64,000 nt of DNA. Source: Ulva prolifera (Eukaryota > Chlorophyta > Ulvophyceae > Ulvales > Ulvaceae). Location: NCBI GenBank assembly GCA_023078555.1, contig CM041198.1, positions 646,856 to 710,855 on the forward strand, written 5' to 3'. The stretch's first letter is position 1. The number at the start of each line of letters is the position of its first letter. A program made the position numbers and the translations under genes. The notes below the pieces were generated by a model. The model saw only the letters and a list, made by a program, of their open reading frames with translations, did no database searches and was not told the origin of the DNA. Positions 37,445-55,047 of the stretch are shown piece by piece.

Positions 37445-40400
37445 TTATGCTGCGCCTACACTCCACGCAGGCAGGCGAAGGGACAAAGGGACATGGCAGG
37501 CATGCGGTGATGGAGGAGCGTCTTGAAACGCACTGCGCGTCGGATCAGGAACATCTCCCCTGCTCTTTAGGAGTGGGTGCACGCTCGGCCAATTGGAGAG
37601 CTCAAGGAACTCGGAGTGCGACAGAGGGGACGGCGTCTTGTCCTTTGGGAAGAGCTCCACTACGCAGTGGCCCGGTCCCATCACTGTCATGAGGTTAAAG
37701 CGCTTCTGGTTCTCGGGGTGGTTCAGGAATTTGCCGACGGCATCACGCACTTTGGAGTAATTCTTAACAGCGGAGTGCTTGCCGCGGCCCGTGATGACCA
37801 CGAGCAGCGTGCGGCCAGGCGAGGGGTTGCCGGCCGCGTAGATGAGCTTCTCAGACAGCGTCTGTAGTGCCGGTTCTACGTGCAGGCCGTGCAGGTCCAG
37901 TGTGAAGACCTCCCGGTTGTGGCGGTTACGTGCACGGTACATGCGAGTCGCGACCTCCGCTTGCATCTTCTCCCTCTGCGCCTCCATAGTTTGGATCTGC
38001 ATTGCACCACTCTGGAGCAAGCAACATACTTCATGGTGTTGGCCACGGGGGGGGGGGGGGGGGGGGGGGGTGCAGGATCAGCACACCTGAAGGCAAACAA
38101 AGGTGCCAAGGCGCCTGACTTGGATACATCAGGATTTATACGTCAGTGATCTCCACTTAACACCAAAAAAGTGCAGAAAGACGCGGGAAAAGAGATTATA
38201 CACACGATGGTAAGCTGAGTAGCTTTGGAAGGCAGGGCGCACCTCAAAGGTCAGCTGGCCACACACATGTTCATCCCTCATTGCCCGCGCTTCATCGCGT
38301 TGACACCTCCTAGCTTTGATTTGTTCTATGAGGTCCTTTATAGGCTGATTCAGCCTGTTGTATATGGCCTGCGTGGCTCGAGCCTGTGCCTCACCTGTCA
38401 GCAGGCCGACGTTGTCATCGTCATCACTCTCAGGCAGCGCAGCAGCGTCAGGTGGCATCTCTGACGCCAGCTTCAGCGCATAACTGCGGTCTTGCTCCTC
38501 CTGCACCTCGCGAGCTACGCGCAAACTGTTCTGTTCCGCCGGGTCCAGAAACTCCCATGTTTCTATCTGTGGCATCACCTGCCTAGTTGCAACAGTCGAC
38601 GTGGCAGTGTCCATCCTGCTATGAGCACCTGCTTGGTCATGACCCGTTGGCCCGCTCTCCACCCTGGAAGGACTGCCGTCAGGGTCTATAATGATCGGCG
38701 ACGACGATGCTGGGCTAGAGTTGTGCGATGTTGCATGATTTGCCGCAGCGGCGGGCGCATTAGTGAAACCTCGACGCAGCGGATTCAATGCTATTGGGTA
38801 GGGTTGCGGGCTGCAGTGACGTGTCGGCAGCGGTGGGGGTGGCAGCGCGTCTGCCGCATACCGCGGCCGCAAGTCCGCTCGGCTTGCATCTATCAGACGC
38901 CCATCAGGCAGCCGCAATGTGTACTCCACTGCCAGCTGCCTAGCATTGCGACACTCTACAGAAGCTTCCACCCAGGTGCCGCGTGCAGAATTCCACCACC
39001 ACACATACTCTTTGGGAGCCAGCTCACGCGTGTCATCATGGCAGCCTGCCACTGTAGCCTGCCCAGGAGTTGATTGCCCCGCCGCTGCAGGACTACAGCC
39101 AACGGCAGCAGCGTTGCGACCACGTACGCCTCTAGTGGGCGAGCCAGGCAGTGGTGAGCCCGGTGCTGGAGATCCAGGAGCAGACAGCCCCCTCCTGGCC
39201 TGCCGGCTTGCTTTGCGCGCTGGGGGCGTGCCCGTGTGGCCGCTGTCCTGCTGAGCATGATGCGGCACGTTATTGACGTGTAAACGCGCTGTTGGCATGG
39301 CATCTGGCTTGACCTTGATCCCAGCTTCCCGCAAGATTGTGATGGCATCCTCGATGCTGCCGTCCACACTGTCCAGGATGCCCGCAAGAGTGTCCGGGTC
39401 CGTGTGCTGGTCCAACAGCCGCTGCAGCTCTCGAACTCCCGGCTCCACCGCTGCTTTGGCTACCTGGTGATCATATGGTGGGAGCTCCTCTGCAACAACA
39501 CTGCGCTTGGTTGAGATCACGCATGGCACCAGCAATGTGGCAAGGCAGCCGTGGGGTCCATGCTGTAGGTCTGCATGCCAGACATGCGTGCCGATTACAA
39601 TACACGTCATTCATGACCACGCCGCCTGTGAGCTGGATCATGTTGTGTTGTGTACCATGAAAAATGACTGTTTCATACAGCAAGGAACACGCTGACAGAG
39701 CAGGTGTGAGCGCGTGCGGCGCGCGCATCTACCTATTCCCTATCTGACAATAGCAAGCCGTAGACCAGCTGACGATGTGTTCCTATCAGCCTGGCATGTT
39801 CAAAACAATCAGTGACAAGCATTTGGGGATGCGGAGCACTGGATTCAGCCGGTGCAACTGTGATAGCACTCTGAACGTCATGTTGCAACAGACCCTTTGG
39901 GCAGCACACCGTCTCCACCAGCCAGCAGCAAAGACTTGGCTGTCTCGAAATTGCAATTGCAATAATGCAGGGCTGCAGCGATTCGCTCCGCAGGGACGAC
40001 ACGTCCGATGGCAGCACCCTGGCGCCCAGCATCACTCATCAGGAACATTCTTAGACTGGATAGCTTCCGCTTGAATTCGTCCTCTGGCAGCGTCTTGATG
40101 AAGGCTTCATCTCGCTGGTGCTGTTCAAACCATTGTGCTGTGACTGCATTATGAATGCGGGAAGGGCCAGATGCTGTCATCAAGCGTGCGATGGACGCAT
40201 CAATGTCATGGTCGTGCTCAGCTAGTATGTTGTCAATTGTAGCTGCAGGAACGCTTGGGAAGCGCTGAATAAGGTAATCTCGAGGTGATACATCGCTAGG
40301 CTTGTGCATGTCAGCTTGGTGCACATCTTGTAGACTGTTGCTCTGCACACATTCCACCTTTATCGCACATAGCGAGGTCATTATTCAGGTGTTCATTCCG

Positions 40401-41242
40401 AACCAATGACAGCCATGCGGACAGCGATGCCCTTGTGTGCCACACATACAGTGACACATCTCAGTAGCTTGACCGCTGAGGAATTTTTGCGAAGGGGAAG
40501 TCTAGGCGCACCTGTTGTGCTGCATCGGTGTCATCTCCCCCAGCAATTTCTTTGAGAATGCTGTAAGCTGCAGCTGCATTGCCACTTGCATTCTCATAAA
40601 CAGTTTGCACTACGACTGGATCCAGCCCACTGAATTCGCCTAGAAGGTAGTCGACTTCACGGCCGGCGCTTTGGGGTTGGATGCTGGCTGCTACATGTCT
40701 TGTGTTGTCGTTGGATGGAGGCACTGCACAACCATTGCAGGGTTGACTCCCATCATCGCGAACATTGTCAACAAGCCGCTCATACAGCAGCTGCACAACA
40801 TATAGGAATTAGTGCCCCCGGAATCACTAACTTTTGGAATATCTCGTCGGTTCATGTGGTGCCTCCTCTATGGATCTTCATGGAAGGACACTGCTCAGAA
40901 GACTTGTCCAGGCGCATCCGGCAGATATCAGGAACACGAGAGATTCAGAACCATATTGAATGGGAATGGGCAATTTGGCTTTTGAAAATTCGTCGCACCT
41001 GGTGCCGACCTGTCCGAGTGACCATACGGGGTAGTTTGCATTGGATCCATCACACAGATGGAATCTGGCAGCTCATGAGGGGAAGGCTTATGAGTTTGAT
41101 ATGCTGGTGGCAACATCAGTTCCAAAGCACGACTGGCTTGGCCGATGTCGATCTGTCCCGACGCTGCCGCGAACTGCTCAATCACAGCATTCACGATAGC
41201 CGCGTCAAGCATCGGAAACTTTGCAAAAAGTTGATCTGTCAT
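37445..41242 (-). CDS. Multi-CUE domain protein with C-terminal SMR domain (about 900 residues)
   Basis: Exons in coding order: 41242 to about 41054 (end uncertain), 40790-40512, 40342-39910, 39489-38243 and 37996-37445. Phases of the last four agree. CUE/UBA-type ubiquitin-binding helices recur: LFAKFPMLDAAIVNAVIEQF, YLLGEFSGLDPVVVQTVYEN, LIQRFPSVPAATIDNILAEH, VVPAERIAAALHYCNCNFETA and LLDQHTDPDTLAGILDS. Exon 4 continues with a GSP-repeat linker, a segment with WWWNSARGTWVEA and LPDGRLIDASRADLRPRYA that resembles a Tudor/Agenet motif, and a charged coiled region. The last exon holds an SMR domain, with LDLHGLHVEPALQTL and VVITGRGKHS. The arrangement recalls N4BP2-like and plant CUE-SMR proteins, in which SMR is a nucleic-acid-binding or nicking module. 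The canonical HGxG is TGRGKHS here, so nuclease activity is doubtful. Confidence 0.8.
38047..38070. repeat. Poly-G tract, 24 bases, in the last intron of the CUE-SMR gene
   Basis: Twenty-four G on the plus strand. On the coding strand it is poly-C, starting about 50 bases upstream of the acceptor of the SMR exon. It could work as an extreme polypyrimidine tract. Confidence 0.9.
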
Positions 41243-44200
41243 CGTGTATAGTCCCTCGCCTTATTGATGGATAAGCTCGCACGAGCTGTCGAGCCTTCGT
41301 GCCTATGCGCCTGTGCTCATTCCATCACAGAAGTGTATGCGGGTGAGCCTGATGTGATGGCCATTCAGTTGTTGCAGGCTCACGGGGTCACGGGCCGCGG
41401 GATGAGTGTGCAGATGGCCGCCTGTTGCAACTATCTCCAGCGCGTGGGAGATAGCCAGCGCGTGGAAGAGAAGAGGCAGGTAACACTCCCAGCGCGCATC
41501 GCGTCGTCGAAGGATGCGGTGCTCTAAGCATAATACTCCCAGGCATACAAAGTGCAGCTCCGAAGTCTGTACACCTCCCACTTTCTCATCCAATTGCCCG
41601 AATCGTCCGGATGTCAGTACATGCAGGGCCACGGATAGACATGAGCATGATGGATAGTCAGACATGGTGCTGCAGGATGGTCGCTATCTGGTGGGCACTC
41701 GATGCTGCCTCGGCATACCTGTCAAGGTCAGCAGCTACAATCTCCTTTTTTGCAGCACGTGACGACAAGGACGGGTAGTGTGGCAGGCGGCAACGCCCAA
41801 CTCACATGCCCGACCGCGGCCTCATGCACCCGCGGCAGCAAGATGAGAACAGCGGCACTGCATCTTGGAGGCTGCCTCGAGAAGAACACACAGCCCGCCT
41901 CTCACGCATGCCCCCTGGAACAGATAACGACGGGCATCCCCCGTATTCTCTCACGCGCACTACACCTGTGTGCTACTCCCACATGCGCAGCACCTCGTCA
42001 AGCTGGCTAACATCGTGTTGCTGTGTGATGTATGCGCCACGCTGTCCTTGCGACGAATCCCTTGCGCCACCCGGGTCCGCAAGCTGTAAGAAGTAGCGGG
42101 AAGACCAACTCTGACTAGCGCAGCTGGTTGGGCTGCGTGTGTCGGTCGCACCCAGCCCATGAGCCATGCATGGTTTCGGATGATCGTTGGAGCCGGGTTG
42201 CACACTGCTTTGCCTCAGCCTCTTTGCCTCTCTCCGGTGCATCCACTCCCGCCACTTGCACACCCACAGCTGGCGGCCCCCGCACCGCGTCCACTGGACA
42301 CGTCCGCTTCCTCAGACCGCCAGCAGCAGCTCACAAGCAGGGCCGCCGGCTGCGTACAACTTGGACGGTCAGCTTATTAACACATCAGTGCGAGGCAGCG
42401 CCAGCGAAACATCAGCAAAAAGTACACAACACCAAATTTCGCATCGCACGATGCTCTGATCACGGCGACATGTCATGGCCGGTGATGCTTTGACCGGCAT
42501 CGGGGGAGAAGTTCGGGGGTCGCACAGAGGCGCCTGCTGCGCAGCATCGGCAGCAGTGTGCCTGCAACTTGGAGCTGCGACGTCCCCCCTCAAGCCCTGG
42601 GACCCCTTGCCCAGCACACCATGGCTGCACTTCACAATACATACATGGCAAAACCTCCGGCGATCCTGGAGGCCTGCGCGCAGCTGCTCTCGAGCCAGCA
42701 CGACGTTGTACGGTGCGCTGCCAGAGCGGTGCAGGGCATGCATGCTGACGGCGTGCAGTCCCGGCCCCGAGCTCTTGCTGTCATGCATTCACGTGTGCGC
42801 TGGTTTTTGTGCATGGCCACATGGCGCAGAAGGAACCTGGCACATGTGAACTCTTCTGCAGTACGTTGTTACAGTGGGCCATGCGCGGATGCCCGTTGAG
42901 GTCGGCAAATGGAGGGGTATCGACCAATTTGGATTTGGGGTGGTTCAGTCCAAATGCACATGCCGCAGCGGCAGCAGGTTGAATGTGGGCCCGGACAACG
43001 CGGCGGGTCACTCAAGTGCGCAAATGCATCCGCGTGCATTGAACCCCTCCTCAGGAGCTCTGTATGCCCGAAGCGATGTGGCACGTGGGACACGACGCGC
43101 TCTGAGGCCTCAACCCTAGGGTTCGTGTAGGTGCGCTCATGATGGCAAAGTCAGACATGTGCAGGCAAGGCAACGCAAGCACTCTTACATAGCACGAATT
43201 ACAATCCACACATAATTACAATTTTTAAGGTATGGGTGCCCGTGTATGTGTGCACCGCGGCCTTGGAGCAACACAAAAACACCGGCAAGCACAGCCTGGA
43301 ATCTCACCTGCGGAAACTGATCATGTACGTGTGTGTCATGCGGTGCAGGGTCGGTGCTTAGATACGAGAGATGCCGGAGATACGAGCCTGAGGTCCAGAT
43401 CTGCGGACGCATGCATTTCAGAAGCACCTTCATCAGAATTCTCTCACCTCCTCCCACGCGTCACATCTGTTCTGTGCGCTGTTCACCTGCTCAGCTTCAA
43501 AAGTGTACACAGCTCAGCCTGCCTCGTACAAAACATCTGTGCACACGCGCATTGAACGCTTGGGCATGGACGTGGCAGGCAGCTCGAATCAGTTGAGGCC
43601 CATTACCCACGTGGACTGACAAGGTCGATAACGATTGAGTTCGTAGTGGTACGGCATTGCACATCCAACACCTGACCCTCACGATAGACCACTGCTTCAG
43701 CGTCAGCCGCGCACAGTTCAGGTGTTGAGATTGTCGTGAACACAAAGGTCATGACAACATCGGAAATTGTTGTGAACACAAAGGTGACTGGACAGGATTG
43801 AGCGCGCAAGTCGGTGGCCTCGCATCGGAAGCTCGCATCTGCGCACGTCGGGTGGTCGACTTCACGTCGGGTCGCACGCCTGGACGTGCCTGTGCACGGA
43901 TGACACATCTCGGGCTATCAACTGTGAGCAATCCAGAAGGCCATTTGCTCGCATTTTGAGCGTGACAATCCATAACATCTGCAGCTGTGTAGAAAGCTGT
44001 CTGTCTCTGTGATTTCATTCAGCCGTCGTGGAGCGTGAGCTTCCGCTGTGCTTTTGCGGTGCGCGTCACTTCACATCAGCTCCCAACTGGACCAACCCAT
44101 CCCGTCTTTGACATCGGCAAGTTTGCTGGCCTTCGTCATTGTTGCCGCAGTAGATTGCCACCACCAGGTGTCGTCTGAGCTATTCTGTTTTACTTTTGAT

Positions 44201-44260: not shown

Positions 44261-46828
44261 ATGACACAACATACGCCAATGATGTCACAAAGCTGTGGCG
44301 TCATGCCTTTCTGCCTGGGGTTGATGCTCGCGATTTCTGATTCCGCTGCCGTCGCTCACAGCACCAGGCGACTACCAGACCCAGGTGAGCTGACTCGTCT
44401 CGCGAGGCTTCCGGTGCATGCCTTCTGAATGGATTTGCGTCAAAAGTGCGCGCAGCGGCTGGATATCGCACCATCTTTCAGAGCGTGGCGGACCTCGCAA
44501 CGACGAAAGGATAGTGACTTCCTTTGTAGACCAGGGCATACAGTGCATCTTCAACGATAGCTGCAACATCTTTAGCTTTAGTTCCGCTCATGGATGGCTA
44601 ATTCTATGTCCAGGGGCTGTCAGTGAGAATGAAGGACTTCTGCACACAACCGGCACGGCTAACAGCGGCCCCAGCGACCACTCGCGGACCAGGCGCCTAC
44701 TGTTTAACACGCGACGCCTCGCAGACGTTGATGAAGACCAGGAAAACCAGCATCAGCACCCTGGCTCAGCCGAACCGCACTCTCACGAAAACGGCACAAC
44801 ACCCCACCAGCACGACCACTCCCACCAGAACACCCCGACCCACTCTCACGATGACAATGAAGATGGCCATGCTCATCCAGACCATTCGCATGACGGCCTG
44901 ACACCACATGCACACGCCGATAGCGAAAGCGGGCATGAGCATGACTGCCACACCCATGATGGTCTGCCACCCCATCGTCATGGGGACGATGAAGATGGAC
45001 ATGAGCACTCAGACACAGATCAATTCGAGCCATGCGACACTGGCTGCACAACTTCGACCCTGCCAGGATTTGACTGCATGGAACCTCTGCTAGGCGACGA
45101 TGTCATCTTCCACTACCAAGCCTTCCAGACAGGAGGTGCGAGTCCAGCTAATTCCATCGGCCCTTGCAGGGCCCCCAGCCCTTTCTGAACCTTGTCCTCT
45201 GCGGCTTGTGTTCAATGCCACGTCACAGTCTAGTTCGGCTAATGATAGAGGAGCAGTGAGCTGAAGCAGTGCTGTGAGTGGCGCCATGAGCTTCTGCCTC
45301 CGTCTGCCCACCCACCCCATCAAACGTGTGCGATGTGTCCTCACGTGTCTATGTGCACATCCACTTACTCCACATCGCCCGCCCTGCAGACACGGTCGCA
45401 AAGATGGCGCTGGAATCCCCTCACCAAGACGGCTGGGCCGCTCTTGGGTTTGGCGATACCATGGTCGGCAGCACAGCCATCATCGCCACAACCAAGGCCG
45501 CGAACGGCATCGGGGTGTTTCTGCTTGGCGGATTTTCCCCGGATCAAATCACTGAATACCCTGATGGTGTCTCCGGCTCCGGCGGCAGCCGCCGCCGCCT
45601 CTCTGACGCATCCCCGGAATTCACCATCTCTGATGTGCGTGACCCCTCCGCCTCCGCCTTGCCGCATTATCTCCCTCGGCCGCAGACGTGATTCATGACG
45701 GTCCGACGGCCGCACGCTGTGGTGGTTCTGTCCATGCACAGGATCCATGGTGCACCTCACTCGCCTGACGCGCGTCCATGCATGCAGGCCTCCATTGAGC
45801 GCACTGATGGTCGGCTCGTTGCGCGCTTCTCTCGGGCGTACGACGACTCATTCCGCGGGGACGCAACGATCGCGGCCATCGCAGCGTACCACAGCTCAGA
45901 CGCGGCCCTCGCCCAGACGCACGAGCAGCGCACCAAGGGCCTCGGCCTCTCCCTGACAGGCGGTGCGATCACCGTCGCAGAAGACAACATACCCAAGCTG
46001 CGCCAGTGGCACGCCGGGCTGATGCTGCTCAGCTGGGGTGTGCTGCTGCCGCTGGGGGCGATCATGGCCGCGACACTCAAGACGTTTGGCCCCAAGTCCA
46101 TGTGGTGCGCCCCAGTCGCCACCTGCCCGCAGCTGCCATCTGCGTCCTGCTGGCAGCGCATGCGCCATGCATGCTCGCCGCCAGTCGTCTGCAGGTGGCA
46201 GCACATGCGCGCTGCCCACAGCACGCAGCATGCTGCTGTGCGGCCACCCTGTACGCCCTGTACTCGCAAGCGCCTGAGCGCCGCCGTGCCGCCGTGCAGG
46301 TTCCAGCTGCACCGCGCGACCCAGACGCTCGGGCTCCTCCTCGCGACCGTTGGCTTTTTCCTCGCGGTCGCCAAGTTCGATTCGCTACCATCCGGGGACT
46401 CGCACAAGCGCTTTGGCATCGTGGTGATGGTGCTCGGCTGGCTACAGCCGATCAACGCGCTCGTCCGCCCGCACCCGCCAGAGTCCGGCGAGAAGCCGAC
46501 TTTCCTGCGCCGGGTGTGGGAGTTCGTGCACCACGTTGTCGGCTGGGTCTGCGTGGGGCTCGCGGTGTCCACCATCGTGCAGGGCCTCAGCCACGCCAAG
46601 ACGTACGAGGGGCTGAGCGACAACTACCTGAAGCTGCGAAACGGGTACATCGTGGTCGGGGTGTTGCTTGCGGTGCTGTTGGCTGTGATGCTGACGTTGC
46701 ACATTGTGCGGACGCGCAAGCAGTGCAGGGACAACAGGGACACCAGCGGGGACTACGTGAAGTCGACGGCTCCGGGTGCGGAGGGGGTTGGGGACGTCGA
46801 CAGTGTGCAGCCGCCTGACTCGCCCTGA
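44261..46828 (+). CDS. Histidine-rich DOMON and cytochrome b561 domain membrane protein (transmembrane oxidoreductase)
   Basis: Predicted trans-membrane electron carrier (ascorbate-dependent ferric/cupric reductase type). Five exons: 44261-44384, 44614-45135, 45390-45634, 45788-46104 and 46300-46828; all phases agree, 578 residues. Exon 1 encodes a signal peptide (core MPFCLGLMLAISDSAAVA). Residues 88-173 carry 24 His arranged as twelve HxH pairs with many Asp/Glu, in a 22-residue unit (GHxH-xxHxHDGLxPHxH). A DOMON domain follows (182-335, with DGWAALGFGDTMVG). The b561 core starts near 366, and the four expected haem-ligand His are present: His372 (RQWHAGL), His407 (FQLHRATQ), His438 (DSHKRFG) and His480/481 (VHHVVGW). 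A fifth membrane span (YIVVGVLLAVLLAVMLTL) precedes a charged cytosolic tail. Starts at 44279 or 44282 are also possible. The His-rich insert is not usual for this family; metal binding is inferred. Confidence 0.92.
44850..45010 (+). repeat. Internal 66-base repeat encoding the GHxH/HxHDGLxPHxH unit
   Basis: Two full and one partial diverged copies of a 22-codon unit lie inside the His-rich exon of the DOMON-b561 gene. Protein similarity is clearer than DNA similarity, indicating selection for spaced His pairs after duplication. Confidence 0.75.
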
Positions 46829-48879
46829 TGCACGCACCTGCCATACTGATTGCAACGGCGGCAAGCCGAGCACTTGTGCCTCGCGGACACGCAGCCGGCG
46901 AGGGGGGTAGCATGAAGCAAAGCAGGCGCCGGATAGTTTCTACCCCCACACACGGCAGCCTTGGCATGGGTGTAGATGTAGCTGTGCTGGCAGCGCAGTG
47001 GCATGGGCCCCTCAGTGATGGTAGAATGAATGGCAGAGTGAGACGGCTGCGGAGGTGGTATGGTTGTGGCGTTGGTGTGTAGCTGGGAATGATGTGCTGC
47101 GGGGTGGGAGGGAGCACAGCTCAACACAGTGGGCAGCTGCCGCAATTGCACATGCAATGAGCACCGGCGCGTTGGCCGTGCTTGTGTTGTAGGGAGGCCT
47201 CTCCACAGGGACTAATGGTGGCAGTGGACGGGGGGCGGGGTTCAACCCTCGGCCTGCTTTTCAATATTGATGTACAGCAGATAGCTTGCTTTGGTCTAGA
47301 TCCGACAGGTTGCTGCCTCCGATGGCTTGCGTGTTTGTGATGTTTGTTGGCGATGTGAAGGAAAGGAGATGTTGTCGCCTGTTCTCACAGATCATGAGCA
47401 TGTTGCAGCCTGAACCTGACCGGGCGTCTCGATTGCGGGAGAGTATGTTTGCTATGGACAGATGAGGCTGATAGCTGAACGTGCTGGCCGACGTGCGCTG
47501 TGTCATGAGGACACGGGAAGGTATACCCCCAGCACTGCAGGCGCTTGTAGCATCTGCTGATCACGAACATTTTAATGAGGGAGCTCGTTGCTTGTCAAGG
47601 CCGCCAGCGCTGACTCCGTCGACAGATTTTCAAAGGCCCTGGTGATGATGCTGCTGTGCTCGAGTAGACTGGATGTTCGATGGCATGTATCCGAGATATG
47701 GTGTGCTCAGCAAACAAGATCTGCGTGACCAGTACATTCGCACCGAAGGTCTGCAGAGCTCACTCCGCTAGCAGAGTTGCGCTTAAAGAGGCCACAAGGC
47801 TGAAATGTCCGTTGCATGCATTCGAAGCACGCCGCGTCGCAGTGAATGCTGTAAGGCATCTGCAGACCTATGTCTACAGTGGCCGTGCTGCGCAACACCG
47901 TGCTGTACCAACTTTCCATTTGATAGATGATTTCATGCACAGCTGTTGCGGCGGTGCTGCGGACGTGAAGCGAATCCCTGTGTGCACAGCTGCACTTGCT
48001 GCAGCCCACTGCGACTCCCCCGTAACAGCGAGCGTGCTGTTCTCGCCGGGGTCAGAGGCCGCAAGCGGGGACGATCTTTGCTGTCGCATGGCGGCAGCTA
48101 CCAATTCTGAAACGGATATGTTGCCTGATCTCGATGGCAGCGTATTCGCATGACAGTTGAATCACTCCGCGACCACTTGCACACAGCTTGAAAGCAGCCG
48201 GCAGGCCTCGGAGTGCCGTAAGGACGCTAAGCATACTCGCTACATTCGCTACGCTGATTTCGTGTTCTCGTCTGCTCCGTCTTCACCTTCAAGTGCAGCG
48301 TGTTGAAAGCTTGCAGTTTCCCAAGCACAGCGCAGGTGTGGTCTCGTCTCTCCCTTTGTGGTCCCCGCCAACGCATATAGCATAATACGAAAGCAGTCAT
48401 GCTTTGATCAATGCTGCATTGCACTGATGAGCTGCTCAGCCCAAGCGCGACGCAACTGCGCTCTCATTACTCCCGATGTCCGCGGCGCTGCCTTCCCACA
48501 TACTGCAGCTAGAACATTATGCGCATCATGAGTGGTCTATATCCATCATAGCTTCATTTTGGTTCGGACGGTAGGACTGGCACGTCGCATGTACCTGGGA
48601 TGTGCGTATCGCCACATGGTGATGTGTCGCGCACACGGACAAAGCTCTCTGAACGCTCTCGTGCATGTAGTAACACACATGACAGCACAAGTGTCGAGTT
48701 CCTGCGATCGCATGGCATCCTCTCTCCGTGCCGCACAAAGGTGGATGCAGCTGTGGACGCGCACTGCAAAACCAGATTTACAAGTGCGACGATTGCGTAC
48801 AGGTTCCGTATCGTAGACCTCGCACCAATTCCCGGGCATTGCATTTCTCCTGACGCTCGTTCTGCAAATAACTGGCGAG
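46829..48879. other. Intergenic region between the b561 and mucin-like genes
   Basis: About 2 kb. An ORF at 47680-48153 (plus, 157 codons) has ordinary amino-acid composition but no domain, and I do not call it. The rest should be the b561 3' UTR and the promoter of the next gene. Confidence 0.4.
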
Positions 48880-49995
48880 ATGCGGGTGGGGCGAAGGGCG
48901 GTGTCCGTTTCCAGCATCTGGCCCGCGGTGCTTGTCGCGTGCTTTGCACTCAACACCGGGCATGCTCGCCACTTCCGCGGCGCCAACGTCGCAGATTTCC
49001 AACAGCACCGCCTAGGGCGCTTCCTGCTGGACACAGCCGACACGACTGAAGCACCTGTCACACCTGTCACCCAAGACGAGCCCGCAGATGCCGTCCCCGA
49101 TGCTGTACCAACAGCTGACCCCACAGAAACCCCCGTCGACTCGGCTGAGCCTGCCCCAGAAGTCGAGCCTGACCCTGTCACCCCGACGGAGACCCCTGTG
49201 ACGCCTATCGACGAAGCAGAAACGACCCCAGCGACGCCTGCCGCTGAAGATGAAACTACCCCAGCAACGCCTGCCGCTGAAGATGAAACTACCCCAGCAA
49301 CGCCTGCTGTTGAAGATGAAACGATCCCAGCGACGCCTGCCGTGGATGATGAAACGACCCCAGCAGAGCCTGTTGTGGACGATGACACGACCCCGGCGAC
49401 TCCTGCCGTGGACGATGACGTCACTGCTGTGACTCCAACAGACGCCGTGACCCCTGAAGCCACCCCACCTACCACTGACGCCCCGGACACTGCCCCTGCC
49501 GCCGCCACACCGTCCCCCACCCCAACAGCCACCCCCGCTGCGGCCCCTGCGGCAACCCCTGAGCCCGTCGAAGCCCCTGAACCGGCCGAGCCCCCCCAGC
49601 CCCCCCCGCCGTTTTACGTCACTGCACCCACCACGGGCGGCCGGGACCCCTCTGACGTCGCGCCAGGTGACAGCTTTGCAGGGACGTTCGCTCCTCAACC
49701 CGCACTAGACGACGACGACGATGACGTGGAGCCCACGGACACGCAGGACCCTGATGAGCAGACGGAGCGGAGCGGCCAGCTGGTGCCGCAGGATGAGGGG
49801 GAGGACGACGGGAACGGTGACGAGGACAACACAGGCCGCAACATCGGCATTGCGGCCGCAGCAGTCGTTGGCGTCCTGGCGCTTGCGTACATCGCGTGGA
49901 AGATCTTTGGCAGGCGGAAAGCTCGACCACCGGCCGAGACAGAAGTGGACGTGCGCCCCCCCCCCTTACAGCAGATGCACACTTCATGCTCGTAA
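48880..49995 (+). CDS. Mucin-like Thr/Pro/Ala/Glu-rich type I membrane protein
   Basis: A single-exon ORF of 371 residues. The N-terminal signal peptide ends near residue 29 (hydrophobic core SIWPAVLVACFAL). The ectodomain is almost entirely Thr, Pro, Ala, Asp and Glu. Residues 114-179 are six 11-residue repeats of the type ETTPATPAAED. A Pro-rich PPQPPPPF and a poly-Asp stretch follow. One membrane span lies at about 322-342 (IGIAAAAVVGVLALAYIAWKI), followed by a basic stop-transfer GRRKAR and a short tail. This is the layout of a heavily O-glycosylated, acidic cell-surface or cell-wall-linked protein. No ligand-binding or enzyme domain is visible. It is the next plus-strand gene after the His-rich b561 protein, which also enters the secretory pathway. 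Low-complexity sequence makes homology searches unreliable. Confidence 0.82.
   Translation: MRVGRRAVSVSSIWPAVLVACFALNTGHARHFRGANVADFQQHRLGRFLLDTADTTEAPVTPVTQDEPADAVPDAVPTADPTETPVDSAEPAPEVEPDPVTPTETPVTPIDEAETTPATPAAEDETTPATPAAEDETTPATPAVEDETIPATPAVDDETTPAEPVVDDDTTPATPAVDDDVTAVTPTDAVTPEATPPTTDAPDTAPAAATPSPTPTATPAAAPAATPEPVEAPEPAEPPQPPPPFYVTAPTTGGRDPSDVAPGDSFAGTFAPQPALDDDDDDVEPTDTQDPDEQTERSGQLVPQDEGEDDGNGDEDNTGRNIGIAAAAVVGVLALAYIAWKIFGRRKARPPAETEVDVRPPPLQQMHTSCS
49219..49416 (+). repeat. Six tandem 33-base repeats within the mucin-like gene
   Basis: Six in-frame 33-base units encode ETTPATPAAED-type repeats. The first copies are closest in sequence and the later ones are diverged. The copy number is likely to vary between strains. 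Confidence 0.9.

Positions 49996-50971: not shown

Positions 50972-55047
<4,076 letters not shown>

Follow-up and report, generated by a model that had tools for sequence, protein, structure and literature searches.

A predicted DOMON-cytochrome b561 protein of Ulva prolifera with an arm of four histidine-rich repeats

The window, a stretch of 64,000 nucleotides of contig CM041198.1 of the green alga Ulva prolifera (GCA_023078555.1), carries on its plus strand at positions 44261-46828 a gene predicted to encode a DOMON-cytochrome b561 protein with a His-rich segment ahead of the DOMON domain. The gene model and the exon joins were predicted from the DNA, without RNA; five exons, separated by GT-AG introns of 229, 254, 153 and 195 nt, give a spliced protein of 578 amino acids. 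The features of the gene are as follows.

44261..44384, plus strand: exon 1, with the start codon, a hydrophobic N-terminus, a putative AVA-type cleavage site and a GTGAGC donor
44385..44613, plus strand: intron 1 (phase 1, 229 nt), of uncertain acceptor; in-frame variants of the intron would end at 44481 or 44529
44614..45135, plus strand: exon 2, a single open frame with a linker bearing RRL motifs, the His repeats and the first part of the DOMON domain
45033..45135, plus strand: DOMON start, from Cys182 onward, continuous in frame with the His repeats and placed by a three-paralog alignment
45390..45634, plus strand: exon 3, DOMON core with the predicted haem ligand Met240
45788..46104, plus strand: exon 4, DOMON end with the predicted haem ligand His342, and transmembrane helix TM1 with His372
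46300..46828, plus strand: exon 5, TM2-TM5 with His407, His438 and His480, a tail predicted to be cytosolic and the stop codon at 46828

The acceptor of intron 1 is the weakest point of the model; both alternatives lengthen the linker and leave the His segment unaffected. Exon 1, itself predicted, was assigned from its splice signal and its hydrophobic beginning only, and a hydropathy peak within residues 7-33 was read, by eye and from hydropathy, as a signal peptide. The antisense frames across the His segment are also open in the open reading frame list. RRL motifs recur both inside the DOMON domain, where RRLS is invariant in four sequences, and in the linker that precedes the His repeats, and are possible processing sites in these predicted secreted proteins.

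A six-frame Pfam scan of positions 39000-44000 returned only a sub-threshold CUE match. Four GTAC sites occur in the 1 kb upstream of the gene and the nearest TGTAA signal lies 1 kb past the stop, both counted without a control. The next downstream gene seen (48880-49995, same strand) is predicted to encode a secreted, acidic Thr/Pro-rich protein with DETTPATPA-type repeats, an RFLL motif near the start and, by eye, one C-terminal transmembrane helix; it matched no Pfam family at E up to 1. Open frames on the minus strand at 51355-52241 resemble, judging by eye, the C-terminal part of a SNF2-type helicase.

Residues 88-173 (44751-45008) contain 24 His in 86 residues, none of which (0/24) lies outside an HxH; the pairs number 12 when counted as disjoint and 13 when overlaps are allowed, 12 Asp and 7 Glu are present, and the net charge is -18. 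An earlier note, made from the DNA letters alone, had described 24 His, all in twelve HxH pairs, amid dense Asp/Glu, and the counts agree with it on both points. It had also claimed a duplicated 22-residue unit, which is correct for the last two units and is an understatement for the segment, since this consists of four ungapped, contiguous 22-residue units (residues 88-175) with three HxH each.

44751..44816, plus strand: His repeat unit 1, residues 88-109, degenerate
44817..44882, plus strand: His repeat unit 2, residues 110-131
44883..44948, plus strand: His repeat unit 3, residues 132-153
44949..45014, plus strand: His repeat unit 4, residues 154-175

Units 3 and 4 are identical at 14 of the 22 positions, units 2 and 4 at 12 and units 2 and 3 at 10; unit 1 shares only 3-4 of 22 positions with the other units and has its inner HxH pairs one residue later. 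Chance composition as the source of the HxH pattern was ruled out by shuffling the 86 residues, at least 13 HxH being obtained in 60 of 100,000 shuffles (mean 6.3, maximum 15). The periodicity was examined with shuffles that kept the HxH blocks intact: the 28 positions identical at a lag of 22 were matched in 0 of 20,000 shuffles at that lag, and in 0 of 20,000 at any lag between 10 and 44, and the 14 His-on-His coincidences at lag 22 were equalled in one of 20,000. At the DNA level a 44-nt direct repeat (73%) links units 2 and 4, and Tandem Repeats Finder reported no tandem array over the His segment (positions 44300-46900; three rows, all elsewhere). A CA microsatellite read as HTHT was likewise rejected, there being no tandem array, equal numbers of CAT and CAC and many partner residues. 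Elsewhere in the genome, CA microsatellites do give rise to long HTHT runs in open frames (loci L045-L048 and L052).

All six His are kept in each pairing of units 2-4, and three, four and three of the six codons differ silently; the His of these units therefore look selected. Identical positions of 22 at the first, second and third codon positions number 13/14/6, 14/17/11 and 15/16/8 in the three pairings, the third being the least conserved. For a sample of three short units, this pattern is suggestive of selection acting on the protein. The codon use of the segment differs from that of the remaining gene, with His codons CAT:CAC at 12:12 inside and 1:15 outside (Fisher p 0.005) and a GC3 of 0.55 compared with 0.82 in exons 3-5, which may reflect a different history. 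Both differences favour the reading, held here to be improbable, that the repeats arose recently as a low-complexity expansion, with little function, in a CYBDOM protein of the usual kind; that the third positions differ most in units 2-4 and yet the six His stay, and that 24 of 24 His fall in an HxH, argue against it.

The electron-transfer core was identified by profile searches. PF03188 (Cytochrom_B561) matched residues 371-503 with 27.2 bits (cut-off 23, E 5.1e-6, profile positions 1-134 of 137), and the four haem-ligand His lie at 372, 407, 438 and 480, with spacings of 35, 31 and 42, so that the b561 core with all four ligands named in the earlier note was recovered above the Pfam cut-off. 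All four are aligned in the sole b561 paralog, on contig C4. Five Kyte-Doolittle hydrophobic regions follow residue 371, and a further weak hydropathy peak at 245-264, inside the DOMON domain, was read as a strand. The DOMON assignment is drawn from a sub-threshold PF03351 match (18.1-19.3 bits, cut-off 32.7; E 0.0033-0.0013) and from matches of the family to all four aligned sequences, namely this protein and three paralogs, at E up to 1 (best 6.7e-4). Met240, the predicted DOMON haem ligand, is invariant in the four sequences; His342, 102 residues further on, was paired by eye with a His that stands one column earlier in the three paralogs in the automatic alignment. Genome-wide, the DOMON family had only two matches, both sub-cut-off at E 0.41, near C4:5275242 and C4:5292052, and none at the present gene. 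Sequence searches against solved structures, with the protein, a four-relative profile or the b561 part as queries, gave no match at E up to 1 or 10; b561 structures do exist in the PDB, as named in the literature on HYP1.

That the His-repeat arm is fused to DOMON-b561 in one predicted chain, as had been claimed, is well supported by the predicted reading frame and by the paralogs. The His segment and the DOMON start share one open frame, which supports the fusion even without RNA. The last 30 or so residues of exon 2 align with the DOMON start of three paralogs, with C, ST, GF, C, L, I and HY invariant. In the homology search, exon 3-type paralog blocks start at query positions 26-31 and, at four of the five loci, end at 111-118, and exon 4-type blocks start at 112-115; the window's own blocks span 29-114 and 111-220, exon 3 beginning at 32. 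Since the paralog blocks break at matching places and the DOMON starts align, exons 2 and 3 belong together by homology. Two separate genes, with exon 2 as a His-rich secreted protein of its own and the DOMON-b561 exons as another, could be proposed on the grounds that the exon joins are predicted only, that the acceptor joining exon 1 to exon 2 is uncertain, and that in the paralogs the stretches corresponding to the exon 2 end had to be picked out by eye in neighbouring open frames, being absent from the search matches. This arrangement is very improbable, as the exon 2 frame ends within the DOMON domain, in the residues that align with the paralogs, and the next paralog blocks start where exon 3 begins.

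A search of the 88.9-Mb assembly (44 contigs) with the window protein revealed five further DOMON-like loci. All lie on contig C4, at about 5292052, 5283392, 1850199, 1812905 and 5275242. Only one of them has a b561 match; a genome-wide b561 search gave three places, namely the window gene, C4:5292169 and one gene on contig C5. Judged by eye, the loci at 5283392, 1850199 and 5275242 have a terminal hydrophobic tail resembling a GPI signal, as in plant AIR12. For 1812905 no gene end was found; the TGA in its match, at the upstream margin, is probably intronic. Multi-module DOMON-like genes occur on contig C4 (L007, L008, L009 and L027), three of them within 17 kb and several without b561.

The fetched stretches around these five paralogs contain no His-repeat segment (0/5). 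The highest HxH count per 86 residues near them is 6, in a CA-microsatellite open frame (L027), and their region before the DOMON domain holds another module or Ala-rich stretches. A protein search of the genome with the His segment returned the segment itself and one match at E 0.79 (L029, contig C7, 1696517-1696744, minus strand), a short-period repeat of the THKHT/QAHDMHH type in an open frame, which was rejected as a related segment because it is a different His repeat and looks like a DNA repeat. The 97 pattern matches to the segment in the bacterial and archaeal collection yielded none that was confirmed; exon 2 matched no Pfam family at E up to 1, and the His segment gave a best E of 2.4 in NCBIfam and no PDB match at E up to 10. 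The literature searches, which covered open-licence papers, met no His-rich DOMON-b561 protein among the titles and opening lines of abstracts listed. Thus, the further statement of the earlier note that known DOMON-b561 proteins do not normally carry such a segment is supported within this genome and the open literature only. The absence around all five paralogs, the single unrelated match in the genome and the lack of a confirmed prokaryotic counterpart are also what a low-complexity expansion of little function would predict, and since the arm was not seen around the five paralogs of the one species compared, an expansion confined to this lineage and under weak constraint could also account for it.

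Better characterised relatives are available in plants and animals. HYP1 and CRR of Arabidopsis both reduce Fe(III); HYP1 acts on Cu(II) too, and uses ascorbate for either substrate. They are described in PMC10784544 and PMC10784552 as having a signal peptide, a DOMON domain with Met/His and a five-helix b561 with four His, the layout that is predicted for the window protein, with the DOMON domain outside and, for CRR, the C-terminus in the cytosol. The b561 His of HYP1 (211/245/278/314; spacings 34, 33, 36) and CRR (220/256/289/325; spacings 36, 33, 36) are comparable with the 35, 31 and 42 found here, and the DOMON Met-to-His spacing of 102 is to be set against 84 in HYP1, 91 in CRR and 93 in fly CG8399 (PMC10784544, PMC10784552, PMC10691727). 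The predicted ligands of the window protein thus match those of HYP1, CRR and CG8399 in order and roughly in spacing, as far as the excerpts of these papers give them. No His-rich segment is described before the DOMON domain of HYP1 or CRR in the same excerpts, in contrast to the 86-88 residues with four His repeats found here. In vitro ferric reductase activity is reported for insect CG8399 and mammalian SDR2 in the available part of PMC10691727; there SDR2/FRRS1 and CG8399 resemble the window protein in adding an N-terminal extracellular module to the DOMON-b561 core, which is a reeler domain in their case and a His repeat here. Green-algal DOMON-b561 proteins are known here by description from the accessible part of PMC4855317: Chlamydomonas TEF22 and Cre14.g609900, both thought to be ferrireductases, and Ostreococcus ostta04g02840. 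The His-rich motifs in that text belong to Ot-Irt1, a ZIP protein. The loops of the ZIP proteins AtIRT1 and Ot-Irt1 are, like the present segment, rich in HxH and proposed to bind iron, and the His-rich cytoplasmic loop of IRT1 is reported, second-hand, to bind Fe3+ tightly; they are, however, short Gly-His runs within a carrier, whereas the window protein has 22-residue acidic repeats on a reductase (PMC4855317, in part).

By this kinship and by composition, a metal-handling reductase, which the earlier note had suggested to act at the cell surface or in a vacuole, is a reasonable reading of the protein. ZIP domains are represented by 15 rows in the genome, of which L045-L048 look like CA-repeat artefacts, weak matches probably caused by microsatellites; Ctr gave four rows at two places and FAD_binding_8 four matches. 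FTR1 and Fea1 had no match in the genome, an absence that is weak, the search having been made exon by exon. Light-harvesting genes are present, with 34 exon-level matches; at E up to 1e-100, one LHC exon matched 58 PDB sequences, most of them named chlorophyll a-b binding proteins and the best being the 620-residue chain LHCI-2, as suits a photosynthetic eukaryote with chlorophyll a/b antennae. Uptake by the ZIP or Ctr route requires reduced metal, as is established for IRT1 and Ctr, and this need fits a surface reductase. The FAD_binding_8 matches may be FRE-type reductases, which may supply the reduced metal instead, so the window protein need not be the metal reductase.

The gene encodes, in the reading towards which we lean, a CYBDOM-type trans-membrane electron-transfer protein of the plant HYP1/CRR type with a putative metal-binding ectodomain that would feed metal reduction. 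Alongside the observed anatomy, repeats, conserved ligands and silent-site pattern, a mechanism can be proposed. The predicted layout comprises a signal peptide, an extracytoplasmic arm of four 22-residue His/Asp repeats, an extracytoplasmic DOMON domain and a five-helix cytochrome b561. As in the relatives, electrons would pass from cytosolic ascorbate to the inner b561 haem (His407/His480), then to the outer haem (His372/His438) and the DOMON haem (Met240/His342), and from there to a metal ion outside. Judging by composition alone, the HxH repeats could bind several metal ions close to the DOMON haem and increase their concentration there; the metal may be Cu(II), Fe(III) or Zn(II)-like, the choice being a guess, as is a hand-over of the released Fe(II) or Cu(I) to carriers of the ZIP or Ctr type. 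The fullest form of this proposal, a single-chain capture-and-reduce machine in which the four-unit arm, with six His per unit, would take up several metal ions on the surface of the cell and offer them to the DOMON haem of its own reductase, is put forward tentatively and is doubtful as it stands.

In many unrelated proteins, acidic segments rich in HxH bind Zn(II), Cu(II) and Ni(II), a property that also suits an arm acting as a metal buffer or sink, or as a zinc/copper sensor regulating the reductase, without feeding it substrate. The number of HxH sites, 12 compared with one or two electron exits, points to storage, and the arm ends at the start of the DOMON domain with its predicted haem. 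Such a role, which accounts for the fusion in a less direct way than a capture of substrate, is considered unlikely, if less so than an expansion of little function.

The DOMON-b561 (CYBDOM) kind of protein is already known; the fusion of the arm to such a core did not turn up in the open papers that were searched. On how the DOMON-b561 reductases choose and reach their metal substrate, the insect paper (PMC10691727) suggests that Asp residues close to the DOMON haem hold iron, and no metal site is named in the available parts of the two plant papers (PMC10784544, PMC10784552). A natural, built-in His-repeat arm would allow substrate capture to be tested as a limit on these reductases. If the proposed capture and reduction is true, the protein would be an added component of metal uptake in a genome in which the exon-wise search detected neither FTR1 nor Fea1.
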